Shown here piece after piece: positions 776 through 6,318 of a stretch of 6,391 nt of DNA (position 1 is the first letter of the stretch; every line of letters begins with the position of its first letter). This stretch comes from Anaerolineae bacterium (GTDB lineage: Bacteria; Chloroflexota; Anaerolineae; B4-G1; SLSP01), in assembly GCA_016927095.1 (NCBI GenBank), contig JAFGNI010000164.1:1-6391 (forward strand). The letters run 5' to 3'. The notes below the pieces were generated by a model. The model had not been told where the DNA came from. It saw only the letters and a program-made list of their open reading frames with translations, and searched no databases. The position numbers and the translations under genes were made by a program.

Positions 776-804
776 CCTATTCTCTGCGTTGGAAACGACC
801 TCAA
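776..804 (-). promoter_or_regulatory. Weak candidate promoter for the sugar isomerase gene
   Basis: On the minus strand TTGAGG (804-799) and AATAGG (781-776) are separated by 17 bp, about 20 bp before the start codon. The -35 matches the sigma-70 consensus at four positions and the -10 at only three. A transcript from here would have a very short leader containing just the Shine-Dalgarno. This is a guess from spacing. Confidence 0.2.
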
Positions 805-832
805 CCATCAACAGTCACGAGTCACAAGTCAT
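800..832 (-). repeat. Degenerate 7-bp tandem repeat upstream of the isomerase gene
   Basis: Read on the minus strand, the stretch splits into GACTTGT, GACTCGT, GACTGTT, GATGGTT and then GAGG. That is four to five units with a 7-bp period and a constant GA start. It begins about 46 bp upstream of the isomerase ATG. It resembles in style, but not in unit, the octamer arrays at other gene junctions in this window. Confidence 0.55.
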
Positions 833-2051: not shown

Positions 2052-3038
2052 ATGACGCCCCGCGAACGCGTGTTCGCCGCGCTGCATCACCGGCCGGCCG
2101 ACCGCGTCCCCCGGTTCGAGATCTGGATTGACGCGCTCTTCGACGAGCTGGGCTGTCCCGACCCCGTCGGTGTCTATGCTGCGCTCGGACAGGACTGTGT
2201 GATGATGCCGTCGCAGCTGCCGCCGGGCAGCAATGCCTGGCGGACCGGCGTCGATGAATGGGGTCGCATTTGGCAGGATGGCACCTATGCCGGCGGCGCT
2301 GTCGACACGCTTGACGATCTCAAACGCTACACGCCGCCGCTCCGCCTGGTCGAGCGGCGTTTCGACGTCGCGCGCGTGCGAGCCGCGCGCGAGGCCTATC
2401 CGGATCACGTCCTGATCTTCGGCACCCACAATGGCCCATTCACCGCCGGCTACATGGCGATGGGCTTTGAGCGCTTCTTCCTGCGCTGTGTCGACGATCC
2501 GGGCTTCGTTCACCGGCTTCTGGAGGCACGCACCGACTGGGCCGTCGCCGTCTACCAGCGCGCCATCGCCCTCGGCGCCGAGGTCCTGGTGCTTGGCGAT
2601 GACGCCGGCAGCACCAAGGGGCCGATGATCCCGCCGGGGCTCTGGCGCGATCTCGTCCTGCCCTACCACCGGCGCATGGTCGCGGCGCTGGATGTGCCTG
2701 TGCTCTGGCATAGCGATGGTAACATCGCCGCGCTGCTGCCGGTGGCGATTGAGGCCGGCTTTGTTGGGGTGCACGGTCTCGATCCCATCGCCGGCATGGA
2801 CCTAGCCGCGATCCGGGCGGCGTTTGGCGGTCAGTTGGTCCTAGCCGGCAACGTCGATGTCCGCGTCCTATGCCATGAGGACCTCACCGCCGTGCGGGCC
2901 GAGGTCGACCGCTGCCTGCTGGAAGGATCGGGCCCTGGGGGCGGCTATTTGCTTGCAACCTGCAACAGCATCTTCGCCGGGATGGACGCCGTTGCCGTGG
3001 CAGAGTACTTCAGGTACAGCAGCAGCCTAGCGACCTAG
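2052..3038 (+). CDS. Uroporphyrinogen decarboxylase-superfamily protein (methyltransferase-like, not HemE)
   Basis: The 328-residue protein starts MTPRERVFAALHHRPADRVP, the usual opening of the UroD/MtaA-like TIM-barrel family (PF01208). Later motifs are LGDDAGSTKGPMIPP (181-195), WHSDGN (219-224), GVHGLDPIAGMDL (239-251), LAGNVD (264-269) and GGGYLLATCNSI (296-307). The Arg-rich substrate loop of true HemE near the N terminus is absent, so haem synthesis is unlikely. Relatives include corrinoid:coenzyme M methyltransferases, which bind zinc through His-x-Cys and a distal Cys. Here the equivalents appear to be H220-S-D222 and C304, so the first Cys is replaced by Asp. Many uncharacterised bacterial relatives share the HxDG form. 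AGAGGGA about 9 nt upstream supports the start. The protein looks soluble and cytoplasmic. Its TAG stop lies within an octamer repeat. Substrate unknown; a methyl-transfer role is inferred. Confidence 0.85.
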   Translation: MTPRERVFAALHHRPADRVPRFEIWIDALFDELGCPDPVGVYAALGQDCVMMPSQLPPGSNAWRTGVDEWGRIWQDGTYAGGAVDTLDDLKRYTPPLRLVERRFDVARVRAAREAYPDHVLIFGTHNGPFTAGYMAMGFERFFLRCVDDPGFVHRLLEARTDWAVAVYQRAIALGAEVLVLGDDAGSTKGPMIPPGLWRDLVLPYHRRMVAALDVPVLWHSDGNIAALLPVAIEAGFVGVHGLDPIAGMDLAAIRAAFGGQLVLAGNVDVRVLCHEDLTAVRAEVDRCLLEGSGPGGGYLLATCNSIFAGMDAVAVAEYFRYSSSLAT

Positions 3039-3107
3039 CGTACCCGTTTCGGCGGGCTTTGGCGCCCATTCGCCTACTCGCTCATTCGCTGATTCGTTGG
3101 TTCTTTG
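3026..3107 (+). repeat. Degenerate octamer tandem array spanning the UroD-like / YdeI gene junction
   Basis: The clear core is five units at 3068-3107: ATTCGCCT, ACTCGCTC, ATTCGCTG, ATTCGTTG and GTTCTTTG, with CGCT-like cores at exactly 8-bp steps (3071, 3079, 3087, 3095, 3103). Two more units, TAGCGACC and TAGCGTAC (3028-3043), keep the same register, as does a CGCC at 3063. Positions 3044-3059 fit poorly. The left units encode the last residues and the stop of the UroD-like gene. The right end lies just before the GGGAGG of the YdeI gene. Positions 3076-3095 match 6282-6301 exactly in inverted orientation. Confidence 0.8.
3043..3060 (+). terminator. Weak terminator-like hairpin after the UroD-like gene
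   Basis: CCCG (3043-3046) and CGGG (3053-3056) can pair around a 6-nt loop and are followed by CTTT. The stem is only 4 bp and the T-run is short, so this is marginal and might be fortuitous within the repeat region. Confidence 0.2.
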
Positions 3108-3120
3108 CGGGAGGACACCG

Positions 3121-3684
3121 ATGACTGAAGCCTCGATGCGGCTACGCTTCCACGATCGTGCATCCTGGCGCGCCTGGTTGCAGACGAACCACCGGCAGTC
3201 CGACTCGGTCTGGGTCGTGATCAACAAGAAGGCCACGCCGGCGCCGGGCTTGCCATACGAGGACGCCGTCGAGGAGGCGCTCTGCTTCGGATGGATCGAC
3301 AGCACGCTCAATACCATGGACGATCGCACCTATGCCCTGCGCTTCAGCCCCCGCCGGGCCAACAGCATCTGGTCTGAGTCCAACAAGGCCCGCGTGGCGC
3401 GCTTGATCGCAGACGGGCTGATGGCACCATCTGGTTTTGCCGCCATCGAGGAGGGCAAGGCCAACGGTCAGTGGGACGCCGTGGCTGAGCGGGAGGATGT
3501 AGATACAGTACCGCCCGACCTTGAGGCCGCGCTAGCCGTGCGCGAAGGTGCCGTCGACGCCTACGCAACCCTTTCCCCTTCCCGCCGCAAGCAACTCCTC
3601 TACTGGCTAGCCAGCGCCAAGCGTCCCGAGACCCGCGCCCGGCGCATCGAACAGATCGTCGCGGAGGCGATAAAAGGCCTTTGA
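3121..3684 (+). CDS. YdeI/OmpD-associated (OmdA) family protein
   Basis: The 187-residue protein carries the signature of the YdeI/OmdA family (PF13376). It has SVWVVINKKATPAPGLPYEDAV near the N terminus (with DAVEEALCFGWIDS at 48-61), then RFSPRRANSIWSESNKARV (74-92), and a C-terminal YWLASAKRPETRARRIEQIV (161-180). In enterobacteria the family is linked to resistance to antimicrobial peptides and to OmpD; its biochemical activity is not well defined. There is no signal peptide or membrane segment, so it is likely cytoplasmic. I chose ATG 3121 because GGAGG lies 6 nt upstream. An upstream in-frame TTG at 3097 is inside the octamer array and has no ribosome binding site. The last codons and TGA stop are inside a long hairpin. 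The gene may have its own promoter, since the array separates it from the gene before. Confidence 0.88.
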   Translation: MTEASMRLRFHDRASWRAWLQTNHRQSDSVWVVINKKATPAPGLPYEDAVEEALCFGWIDSTLNTMDDRTYALRFSPRRANSIWSESNKARVARLIADGLMAPSGFAAIEEGKANGQWDAVAEREDVDTVPPDLEAALAVREGAVDAYATLSPSRRKQLLYWLASAKRPETRARRIEQIVAEAIKGL

Positions 3685-3716: not shown

Positions 3717-3764
3717 CCCTCGCTACGACGCTAAGTCGCTACGCCGCTAGGACGCTAGGACGCT
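3717..3764. repeat. Six-unit octamer tandem array at the 3' end of the serine hydrolase gene
   Basis: On the plus strand CGCT occurs at exactly 8-bp intervals six times (3721, 3729, 3737, 3745, 3753, 3761). The units are CCCTCGCT, ACGACGCT, AAGTCGCT, ACGCCGCT, AGGACGCT and AGGACGCT; the last two are identical. On the minus strand the unit reads TCCTAGCG. The array runs into the serine hydrolase coding region and provides its TAG stop (3757-3755) and last codons. Confidence 0.85.
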
Positions 3765-4777
3765 GTCCTGATCGTCTCCAAGATGGGCCAAGCCCCGCCG
3801 GTGGTGTTCGAGATCACTGTGACCTCCAGGTCGCGGGCCAGATTCCGGCCTGAGCGGAAAGAGACGCCGGCATCGCAGCCCTCGATGTAGTGCTCGCGCG
3901 TTCCTGCACCATCATCATAGATCCAGATGCCGTGGCCGTAGAAGGCGTGCTCGCCCTCGGACTCGGCTCGCGCATGAGGTTCCGTGAACAGCGCCACCAA
4001 GGCAGGCGCCACGATCCTCTCACCCCAAAACGCTTGCCAGAGCTGCGTCATATCGTCCAGCGTCGTGTAGGCACCGCCATCCGAGGCGCCGATGATCGGT
4101 AGGTTGTAGATGTTCGTGCGCCAGCCATCCTCTTCGTCAATGTAACCCCAGGCCGTCTCCCCGGGCAGCCGGTTGAAGGCGTAGAAACCGGAATGCATCA
4201 TCCCGGCGGGGCGGAGTACCTCTTCGGTGACGAAATCCCGGTAGGCGCGCCCGGTCAGTGCCTCAATGGCGATGCCCAGCGCAATGTAGCCGCCGTTTGA
4301 GTACGAGAAGCGCGTGCCCGGCGCGAACTTCATCGGTCCCTTGGGGAAAACGGCGAGGTAGTCACGCGGTCCCCGGAGCTGTGACCACGGCACGCCAACA
4401 CTGAAGTTGTCGAAGTCGTCGGCGAGCTCCTCATCGTAGTAGTCGGGGATACCCGAGGTGTGGGTGAGCAGGTGTTGGATCGTAATCTCTGGCGCGTACT
4501 GGTCGAATCCCAGGTCGACGACATCACAGAGTCGGGTGTCGAGAGCGACTGTGCCGGCTTCGATCAGCTTTCCGACGGCGAGGGCCGTGAAGAACTTGGT
4601 CCCCGAAGCGATCCCGAACCTCGTGGTCACTGTGTTGGGCAGGCGGTTGGCCCGGTCGGCGTATCCCGCAGCGACCTCATAGACCGTCTGGCCCGCAAGC
4701 CTGATGCGGACCACGCCGGAGAAGTCGTGGTCCGCGATCGTGGCGCCAATCTGTTCTCTTAGCCGTGCCAAATCCAT
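3755..4777 (-). CDS. Serine beta-lactamase-like hydrolase (class C / PBP fold)
   Basis: The 340-residue protein has the beta-lactamase/D-peptidase fold (PF00144). It shows the nucleophile motif S58-G-T-K61, the LLTHTSGIPDY stretch (103-113), and Y159-S-N161 for general base chemistry. A SDGGAYTTLDDM segment (232-243) corresponds to the usual SAGGL..T..DM. The third-motif region reads E299-GCDAGVSF-307, where relatives usually have HxG or KTG followed by PGF. No signal peptide or lipobox is visible, so it is probably cytoplasmic. This favours an esterase, amidase or peptidase role over periplasmic drug resistance. A GGGAGGG about 12 nt upstream supports the start. It lies 24 bp after the GPH symporter stop, so both probably share a transcript, and it might act on the imported compound. 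Its stop codon is inside an octamer array. Family assignment is firm; substrate unknown. Confidence 0.88.
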   Translation of the reverse strand: MDLARLREQIGATIADHDFSGVVRIRLAGQTVYEVAAGYADRANRLPNTVTTRFGIASGTKFFTALAVGKLIEAGTVALDTRLCDVVDLGFDQYAPEITIQHLLTHTSGIPDYYDEELADDFDNFSVGVPWSQLRGPRDYLAVFPKGPMKFAPGTRFSYSNGGYIALGIAIEALTGRAYRDFVTEEVLRPAGMMHSGFYAFNRLPGETAWGYIDEEDGWRTNIYNLPIIGASDGGAYTTLDDMTQLWQAFWGERIVAPALVALFTEPHARAESEGEHAFYGHGIWIYDDGAGTREHYIEGCDAGVSFRSGRNLARDLEVTVISNTTGGAWPILETIRTAS

Positions 4778-4787
4778 CGCGTCTTTC

Positions 4788-4807
4788 GCCCTCCCTATCC
4801 CCTAGCC
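4788..4807 (-). repeat. Short G-rich heptamer repeat at the symporter / hydrolase junction
   Basis: On the minus strand the junction reads GGGCTAG, GGGATAG, GGAGGG, a 7-bp period of about three units. The first TAG is the stop of the symporter gene and the last unit forms the Shine-Dalgarno of the hydrolase gene. It is short enough to be chance, but it parallels the stop-containing repeats elsewhere in the window. Confidence 0.4.
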
Positions 4808-6265
4808 CTTTTCCCCTATGAGCCGCGCCTTGAGCACCTCGACTTCACGGCGTTCCTGCGGACTGAGCGCATCGCTGCGTCGACAGGCGGCGAGCAGATG
4901 GCGGAGGCGTGCGTGTGCCTCGGGGCTGAGGGGGTAGCGGGAGGCAAAGACCAGGGCCACAGCCAGGAGCGCGATGGGCACACCGGCGAAGATCCAGCGT
5001 AGCGTCGTGATAAAGGCTGGGGACTGGGCTTGCTCGATGAGCCGGGTGCGTCCGTTGGCGAGTTCCTCCACGGGTGGAATGTAGCCAGCCACCGCCAGCG
5101 CGTTGGATACTAGGAAGATGGCCACCGCCGAGCTGAACTTTCGTACAAACGTGATGAGCGCGGAGTAGGTGCCCTCGCGGCGCTCGCCTGTGGCCAACTC
5201 ATCGACGTCGGGGATGTCCGGGAAGATGGCGTAGATCATCACTACGATACCGCCGGTACCGATGCCCACGATGGATGCAAAGACGTAGACGGCCCACGCG
5301 GGGCTCGCCGGCGTGATCAGCCCGCTCACGACCATCGCCGCCATCCAGATACCGGCGCCGACCATATAGCCGGTCCGCTTGCTCGTGTGCCGGCTTAGCC
5401 AACTGTAGAAAGGCAGTGAAACAACCTGGGCGACCAGAAGCGTGCCATTGACGAAGCTCACCTCACCCCCGCGCAGCAAGTGGTACTTCATATAGTAGAC
5501 GACGATACTGCTCACCGCGTCAATGGCGACGAAGGCGAGCAGATACATGAGCAGCGCCATCACGAACGTCTTCGTTTGGAACGGCTGTAGGTAGGTCTTG
5601 CGCCAGTCGAAGGGCTGCGGCGGTCGTTGGAACTCGGAGCGTTCCCGGGTTGTGAGCACCGTCGCAATGAAGGGCAACGCGAAGATGGCGCCGAAGGTGA
5701 GCCCCATCGCGACGTAACCCGTTCGTACACTATCGAAGGCCCCCACGATTTCCAGCGGCACCAGCGCGGCGGCGATGGAGCCGATTGTGGAGAAGAAGAT
5801 GCGCACGGAGCTGAGGACAGTCCGCTCGTTGTAGTCGAGCGTCAACTCCGACTGCAGCGCGTTGTAGTTGAGCATCACGATGCTGACGATGGTCGAGAAG
5901 AAGAGGTAGGTAGCTACGACGAAGAGAAAGCGCGAGGTCTCGCTGGGGAGTGACGTGGGATAGAAGAGCGCGAAAAACGAAAGGAAGACCAACGGCACGC
6001 CCGCCAGCAGATAGGGCCGGCGCCGGCCCATTCGGGTGCGCGTCCGGTCAGCAATCACGCCCTCGAAGGGATCGGTGATCGCGTCGTAGACCTTGCTGAT
6101 GAGGATCACCGTCCCGGCCAGCCCCGGGCGGATTCTGACGACGTCGGTGAGGAAGACCAAGTAGTAGAAGCTGATCAGCGTCCCTGCCCCGCCGCCATAG
6201 ATGTCGCCGAGGCCATAGCCGATCTTTTGCAGCAGTGTGAGTTCGCGGTTGGTGTCGTTGGTCAT
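4802..6265 (-). CDS. GPH-family (MelB-like) sugar:cation symporter
   Basis: The 487-residue, polytopic protein fits the usual 12-helix glycoside-pentoside-hexuronide:cation symporter (MFS, TIGR00792). The N-terminal KIGYGLGD (14-21) and the loop after helix 2, with YDAITDPFEG (60-69) and ADRTRTRMGRRRPYLL (72-87), are diagnostic. D61 and D65 correspond to the paired Asp of the MelB cation site. The C half has IFPDIPDVDELATGERREGTYSAL (347-370) followed by FVRKFSS (373-379), the second conserved loop. Members import glycosides, pentosides or hexuronides with Na+ or H+ across the inner membrane. The charged tail (from about 445) is cytoplasmic. I chose ATG 6265-6263, which has GGAG 5 nt upstream. 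The open frame extends 37 codons further, but only through an octamer array and a hairpin. It is probably the first gene of an operon with the serine hydrolase. Confidence 0.92.
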   Translation of the reverse strand: MTNDTNRELTLLQKIGYGLGDIYGGGAGTLISFYYLVFLTDVVRIRPGLAGTVILISKVYDAITDPFEGVIADRTRTRMGRRRPYLLAGVPLVFLSFFALFYPTSLPSETSRFLFVVATYLFFSTIVSIVMLNYNALQSELTLDYNERTVLSSVRIFFSTIGSIAAALVPLEIVGAFDSVRTGYVAMGLTFGAIFALPFIATVLTTRERSEFQRPPQPFDWRKTYLQPFQTKTFVMALLMYLLAFVAIDAVSSIVVYYMKYHLLRGGEVSFVNGTLLVAQVVSLPFYSWLSRHTSKRTGYMVGAGIWMAAMVVSGLITPASPAWAVYVFASIVGIGTGGIVVMIYAIFPDIPDVDELATGERREGTYSALITFVRKFSSAVAIFLVSNALAVAGYIPPVEELANGRTRLIEQAQSPAFITTLRWIFAGVPIALLAVALVFASRYPLSPEAHARLRHLLAACRRSDALSPQERREVEVLKARLIGEKG

Positions 6266-6278
6266 CGTCTCTCCAGTT

Positions 6279-6318
6279 GCAGAATCAGCGAATGAGCGAG
6301 TCAGCGAGAAAGCGAGCC
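6279..6318 (-). repeat. Octamer tandem array just upstream of the symporter start
   Basis: On the minus strand (coding for the symporter) the units read GGCTCGCT, TTCTCGCT, GACTCGCT, CATTCGCT and a degenerate GATTCTGC. On the plus strand AGCG occurs at exactly 8-bp steps (6287, 6295, 6303, 6311). Positions 6282-6301 match 3076-3095 exactly in inverted orientation. The array ends about 14 bp before the symporter ATG, next to its Shine-Dalgarno. Confidence 0.82.

Follow-up and report, generated by a model that had tools for sequence, protein, structure and literature searches.

The window, meaning the whole 6,391-nucleotide stretch of Anaerolineae bacterium DNA that was analysed, holds three arrays of 8-bp units and a weak tract of 7-bp units, all placed at the boundaries of genes. 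Genes were called with a home-made codon-pair model, which yields the six expected genes in the window. The features that bear on the arrays are as follows:

798..832, strand not assigned: weak 7-bp tract with CAACCAT / AGTCACA units, ahead of a minus-strand sugar-isomerase-like gene
2052..3038, plus strand: URO-D-family gene (PF01208, domain match)
3062..3109, plus strand: octamer array 1, degenerate (ATTCGCTG)n, an 8-bp tract that follows the URO-D-like stop (3038) and precedes the Shine-Dalgarno of the YdeI/OmdA gene
3076..3095, plus strand: arm a of the 20-bp identity, identical to 6282-6301 when the latter is reverse-complemented
3109..3115, plus strand: Shine-Dalgarno GGGAGGA of the YdeI/OmdA gene, directly 3′ of array 1 (ATG 3121; start by gene finder)
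3121..3684, plus strand: YdeI/OmdA-like gene (PF13376, domain match)
3718..3768, plus strand: octamer array 3, CGCTNNNN, an 8-bp tract of 6 steps between convergent genes
3755..4777, minus strand: beta-lactamase-family gene (PF00144, domain match), with its stop inside array 3
4802..6265, minus strand: MFS_2 transporter gene (PF13347, domain match)
6269..6274, minus strand (read 6274-6269): Shine-Dalgarno GGAGAG of the MFS_2 gene (ATG 6265; start by gene finder)
6279..6318, minus strand: octamer array 2, (ATTCGCTG)n-like, an 8-bp tract with 4 CGCT steps, 5′ of the MFS_2 gene
6282..6301, minus strand: arm b of the 20-bp identity, an exact match to 3076-3095

Among the 120 relatives listed for the URO-D protein of the window the best identity was 75%, with Chloroflexota relatives at 67% and 68%, and the best-scoring match to the MFS_2 protein in 400 Chloroflexota genomes shared 36% identity, which places the window probably in Chloroflexota, in a lineage that has been sampled only distantly. 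Rfam had no matches in the window at gathering score.

The first-pass annotation had reported a 20-bp inverted identity between the leaders of the YdeI-like and MFS_2 genes. The identity is exact and stretches to 26 bp at 92% identity; in 300 dinucleotide shuffles of the window the longest match between sites >200 bp apart was 17 bp, and a shuffle test made without exclusion of local palindromes reached 20 bp in 2 of 200. The longest chain of CGCT at 8-bp steps, 6 steps in array 3, compares with at most 2 in 300 shuffles. A chance origin of the window arrays is thus ruled out by the shuffles for both the 20-bp match and the CGCT chain. As had also been claimed, both matching segments lie in 8-bp arrays with a CGCT core (2 exact CGCT steps in array 1 and 4 in array 2) and have the same orientation and place relative to their genes, the AYTCGCT-like units standing on the sense strand of the downstream gene and the array stopping just 5′ of the Shine-Dalgarno. 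Array 3 and the weak 7-bp tract had been overlooked. In its CGCT direction, array 3 runs towards the opposite-strand beta-lactamase-family gene, the stop codon of which (TAG, 3757-3755) lies within the array; its GC skew is weak and it was judged by its CGCT strand.

Beyond the window, a 20-base pattern of the array, AYTCGCTSAYTCGCTSAYTC, matched at least 119 stretches; by record title, 76 of the 119 matches listed were Chloroflexota, and one array among the matches listed had 33 units. A 4-step CGCT array was present in 29 of 38 genomes (all 38 reached through this 20-base pattern), a stricter 4-unit pattern had matches in 4 Chloroflexota genomes out of 400, counting the centre genome, and overlapping pattern matches numbered 208 in genome G002 and 219 in G016. 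The pattern read backward was unusable as a control in both the 38-genome and the 400-genome searches because TCGC is its core too. The octamer family is patchy, mostly in a minority of Chloroflexota. The proposal of a dispersed family that favours gene boundaries was borne out in these relatives, where the arrays occur far above chance (in one genome) and show a boundary bias.

The orientation of arrays around genes was tested on stretches from four Chloroflexota genomes (G001, G002, G005 and G016; 1.37 Mb), most of the sampled genomes being metagenome bins. The four were picked as array-rich, so the sample tests a polarity rule and gives no phylum-wide frequency. Stretches of ≤20 kb were taken from the first 40 contigs of G005 and the first 20 of each of the others, not picked for arrays save one G016 contig placed around a known match. 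Strict intergenic tandem tracts comprised 70 of period 7 and 35 of period 8, with ≤3 tracts at each of the other periods from 3 to 13 and 11 at period 14; Markov-resampled sequence of one genome gave no tracts at periods 4 to 25. In these array-rich genomes, 7- and 8-bp units are nearly the sole intergenic tandem repeats of period 3–13. Two cyanobacteria had tracts of the same kind (Calothrix, 30 of period 7 and 8 of period 8 in 137 kb; Brasilonema, 7 and 1 in 100 kb), while Streptomyces and Burkholderia, 80 kb each, had none of period 7 or 8. At a looser cut, a single tract came from twelve short, gene-centred and so mostly coding loci (47.9 kb) in other Chloroflexota. Many different units occur per genome, including GGGATTA, AAGGAGT, GATTGGTA, GGTGACAA, GCGTATT and AGCGAATC. 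More abundant octamer families accompany the TCGCT octamer in some of its genomes, as at loci L106 and L093 (GGTTGGTA / GGTGGTTG) and at L191 and L197 (GGTGACAA).

Across these families a single polarity rule holds: the C-rich strand runs into the nearest gene, ending before the Shine-Dalgarno at gene starts and against the stop codon at gene ends. The count covered 140 intergenic tracts with a period of 7 or 8 and a called gene at either flank: 100 ran into the nearest gene, 22 ran away and 18 were far (>60 bp from a gene) or tied, 122 of the 140 arrays lying within 60 bp; tracts inside ORFs, containing N or without two flanks were dropped uncounted. At an absolute GC skew >0.3 the four Chloroflexota genomes had 76 arrays into and 10 away from the gene, with similar strength at starts (40:3) and stops (36:7), and Calothrix had 24 into and none away, with 17 far or tied. 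A looser threshold (skew >0.15) gave 38:5 at starts and 40:10 at stops in same-direction spacers of the Chloroflexota, 9:1 at divergent starts and 3:1 at convergent stops; the two cyanobacteria together had 25 conforming and 3 contrary arrays (absolute skew >0.15), with 10:1 at convergent stops. Arrays touching or overlapping a stop codon (within 3 bp) numbered 48, of which 38 were in Chloroflexota, the list being of the conforming orientation alone. The polarity is not an artefact of Shine-Dalgarno scoring by the gene caller, because stop positions are independent of the choice of start. Once repeats are masked, the remaining spacer DNA is skewed only weakly in that sense, its purine fraction being 0.48–0.53 before starts and 0.51–0.55 after stops. 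In the window, arrays 1–3 conform to the rule and the 7-bp tract at 798–832 is contrary.

The TCGC octamer itself was followed in 69 arrays with ≥4 TCGC units (59 in pattern-selected loci and 10 in the samples), 42 of them intergenic and 27 inside called ORFs, some of which are perhaps miscalled. The 3′ end of the TCGCT strand was nearer a gene in 31 of 38 two-flank arrays (p = 1e-4). Intergenic arrays pointed towards a same-strand start in 28 cases, 15 of these ending 8–35 nt from the start, and towards an opposite-strand stop in 13, with positions of -3 to +26 nt in every case; when only arrays within 60 bp are counted, 18 pointed towards starts and 13 towards stops. The preference for gene starts proposed in the first-pass annotation is thus supported only in part: TCGC octamer arrays favour starts (28 against 13), and in all 7- and 8-bp families together starts and stops are about equal; it is only part of the rule because the C-rich strand also runs into gene ends. 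Within called ORFs, 26 of the 27 octamer arrays were antisense. Coding repeats were considered and rejected as an explanation of these arrays: the antisense octamer is open in all frames, and the antisense excess within these putative ORFs follows from the TGA of the sense unit. Antisense octamer arrays in several long called ORFs (loci L025, L024, L089, L096 and L118) may be in-frame linkers, or the ORFs may be miscalled.

Where a spacer contains two arrays, these tend to be inverted relative to each other. Among 33 Chloroflexota pairs in which both arrays had an absolute skew >0.1, the order was G-rich then C-rich in 24, C-rich twice in 4, G-rich twice in 3 and C-rich then G-rich in 2; Calothrix had 6 pairs with the G-rich array first and the C-rich second, 5 with both G-rich and 2 with both C-rich, and Brasilonema had 2, both G-rich first and C-rich second. 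The 24 G-then-C pairs had a mean arm complementarity of 0.694, against 0.552 when arms were re-paired within a genome (0 of 200 re-pairings reached 0.694), with values ≤0.62 in 6 of the 24. The gap between arms was ≤22 bp in 15 of 32 such pairs, cyanobacteria included. Single arrays keep the polarity (43:10), and those without a detectable inverted partner show it more weakly (21 into against 7 away, in spacers <600 bp).

Comparison of congeners indicated how the arrays change. For eight array-bearing Thermoflexus spacers of which both flanks were located in a congener, 17 region-by-congener comparisons detected arrays in 12 and none in 5. In one case a spacer of 13 bp in one congener stands opposite 112 bp with arrays in another. 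The unit at orthologous spacers differs in some and is kept in others, for example as octamers in both G001 and G437 (L148 11926-12167). In the leader of a gene that, from its first residues, we take to be dnaK-like, ATTACTC-type heptamers in G001 and G013 correspond to octamers of the GATTCGCT type in G437, all of them 5′ of the Shine-Dalgarno, and a G-rich heptamer array follows the preceding stop in all three genomes (the G001 spacer being partly N). This spacer (L148 3437-3750; L285, L286) consists almost entirely of arrays. Another Thermoflexus spacer has a G-rich arm of AAGGAGT type in G001 and G013 and of GGTAACT type in G028, with a C-rich arm after each; in G437 the C-rich arm alone passes the cut and is preceded by a GGTAATC-like stretch. 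A genus search found no congener of G005. Within Thermoflexus, one unit can thus stand in for another, even a 7-bp unit for an 8-bp one, with place and polarity staying. An octamer-specific protein site, one of the roles that had been proposed, is therefore unsupported, since the corresponding place in a congener can have a different unit. In a trio of Calothrix genomes the array at one orthologous site is 139, 111 and 41 bp long, which is consistent with a further proposed role, that of a spacer whose length shifts by whole units.

The window arrays belong with the known intergenic short tandem repeats, being tandem, of 7–8 bp, dispersed and polar. The closest described system is that of Rehm et al. 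2015, who studied heptamers of the form GGGNATC / GGGGA(C/T)T in Xanthomonas and Nostoc. The G-rich strand of these repeats is antisense ahead of starts and sense behind stops; the repeats lie nearer the 5′ neighbouring ORF whatever the ORF direction, occur as inverted, convergent pairs (two Xanthomonas genomes had 70 and 75, Nostoc few) and are under-represented between divergent ORFs (PMC4692102). The Chloroflexota arrays are likewise dispersed, intergenic, near ORFs, of the same polarity and arranged in inverted pairs; relative to the available text of that paper they differ in their hosts, in having units of both 7 and 8 bp with many sequences per genome, in the swapping of units shown here at orthologous sites, and in that the octamer arrays are not rare between divergent genes (7 of 38 arrays, against 94 of 783 spacers). 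The window octamer is also without the G-runs needed for a quadruplex: there is no GGG in the unit AGCGAATC, which is not a member of the GGGNATC quadruplex-heptamer family.

MacGregor 2015 described TAACTGA direct repeats in Beggiatoaceae, cyanobacteria and Bacteroidetes, located just 5′ of start codons in one orientation and proposed as sites for a post-transcriptional regulator (PMC4679880). These too are short direct repeats oriented upstream of starts; as far as the accessible text describes them, they have one fixed 7-bp unit, run mostly towards starts and are mostly without a ribosome-binding site, whereas the Chloroflexota arrays have many units and adjoin starts and stops alike (PMC4679880). 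Membership of the octamer arrays in the TAACTGA family was rejected, as unit and length differ and the octamer arrays also adjoin stop codons. A third precedent, the dispersed short-unit satellites of PMC6749651, includes (GATAGRA)n in Chloroflexus aurantiacus, an octamer family, (AGGGGAGT), in Mesorhizobium ciceri, and units of 6–8 nt in Burkholderia; one of its families is thus in a Chloroflexota genome and some are of 8 bp, and octamer units as such are not new, given the Mesorhizobium family. The unit sequences are other than those found here, and polarity at gene boundaries is not described in the available text of PMC6749651.

Six 16-mers of the arrays had no match in the open-access papers searched, and among the open-access titles and abstracts surveyed none concerned a TCGCT octamer family in Chloroflexota, many units under one polarity, or unit swapping at kept polarity. 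The short tandemly repeated repetitive (STRR) heptamers of heterocystous cyanobacteria and the P6b repeats of the trnL intron are degenerate heptamer arrays and stem-loop repeats with variable copy number. The sampled Calothrix obeys the Chloroflexota polarity (24:0 at skew >0.3); the window arrays differ from STRR in having octamer units and in occurring in another phylum. Together these comparisons suggest that the STRR, GGGNATC and TAACTGA families may share one rule, under which the sequence of the unit is free and its length (7 or 8), place and polarity are kept.

With moderate confidence, the arrays are read here as a genome-wide, STRR-like class of 7–8 bp tandem repeats that make up intergenic spacers, originating by slippage and by fold-back or recombination, with a weakly structured leader as one result. 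The full layout of a spacer would be gene, G-rich array, C-rich array, gene, with inverted and often complementary arms whatever the direction of the genes. Replication slippage would lengthen the arrays, together with fold-back copying or recombination involving arms and dispersed copies, and growth would be limited by the signals of the neighbouring genes, the stop codon and the Shine-Dalgarno. Slippage and fold-back alone leave the G-rich-arm-first order unexplained, and an origin by hairpins only does not predict that partnerless single arrays are still polar (21:7).

In the leaders of the YdeI-like and MFS_2 genes the C-rich arm would serve as a spacer of little structure, leaving the Shine-Dalgarno open, as a ribosome standby region; upstream standby sites are an established idea. 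RNA folding gave medians of -0.028 kcal/mol per nt for the C-rich and -0.149 for the G-rich strands of 83 arrays, against -0.260 for 291 random 50-mers. The C-rich strand being nearly unfolded as RNA, arrays 1 and 2 plausibly hold the Shine-Dalgarno open; the G-rich strand, too, folds less than random sequence, so that weak folding is no peculiarity of the leader strand. The C-rich arm at these two genes would not act as a gene-specific switch. A tandem-repeat regulator specific to the YdeI-like gene or the transporter was rejected because arrays sit by many genes and at gene ends.

Selection on the mRNA alone, a somewhat unlikely alternative, would have dispersed repeats land any way round and wrong orientations be lost, the favoured RNA being C-rich and unstructured before the Shine-Dalgarno and purine- or G-rich after the stop codon. 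It accommodates the ends of arrays at the Shine-Dalgarno or stop codon, the nearly unfolded C-rich strand, the persistence of place and polarity that can accompany a swap of units, the polarity of partnerless singles and the weak skew of masked non-repeat DNA in the same direction. However, it needs two mirrored selections of similar strength to give 40:3 at starts and 36:7 at stops, polarity extends to convergent spacers with no start near (10:1 in the two cyanobacteria, 3:1 in Chloroflexota), and complementary arms are not predicted. The mirror symmetry of starts and stops points to a cause at the level of DNA over transcription or translation alone, though two matching selections could also produce it.

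Inverted arms and dispersal would suit a mobile cassette with inverted array ends, MITE- or REPIN-like, copied into spacers, as would the 13-bp Thermoflexus spacer that stands opposite 112 bp with arrays. Such a cassette is unlikely, since no fixed ends were seen by eye in the spacers inspected and the arms of one spacer are often from different families.

Repair of broken ends is decidedly unlikely, even though it predicts much of what is seen. G-rich repeats, templated, telomerase-like or made by a slipping polymerase, would be attached to each 3′ end where a spacer is broken, and the ends rejoined head to head. A G-then-C order whatever the orientation (24 of 33 Chloroflexota pairs), short gaps between arms (≤22 bp in 15 of 32), two different units in one spacer and polar singles would all follow. 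DRT10 reverse transcriptases of bacteria make tandem-repeat DNA, with a 9-nt repeat in one system; their product is, however, a protein-primed cDNA, and insertion into the chromosome is not described in the available text (PMC12632851). Many units per genome are also not what a single RNA template gives. That spacers are rebuilt by a DNA-end process, with G-rich 7–8 nt repeats placed on both 3′ ends and joined head to head, possibly by reverse transcriptases related to DRT10, is accordingly put forward as a very unlikely proposal; if true, it would be a bacterial counterpart of telomere addition and fusion, and the strand polarity around genes would be a by-product of repair and not regulation.

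Least likely is a regulator that recognises the TCGCT octamer ahead of a regulon: the TCGC core is the least variable part of the listed arrays (by eye) and octamer arrays precede starts oftener than stops (28 against 13), but 13 arrays of the same units abut stop codons, one Thermoflexus gene has the octamer where congeners have unrelated heptamers, and the strict 4-unit pattern is found in only 4 of 400 Chloroflexota genomes.

A rule shared by the STRR, GGGNATC and TAACTGA families would recast a long-standing problem of bacterial intergenic repeats as questions that can be tested, namely what sets the unit length at 7–8 bp and whether the mirror-symmetric polarity comes from a DNA process or from selection on mRNA. 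Outside Chloroflexota, an Advenella genome (L088, near 989-1110) has (GATTCGCT)5 and, directly after it, (ACGTCGCT)9, an adjacent pair of octamer families.
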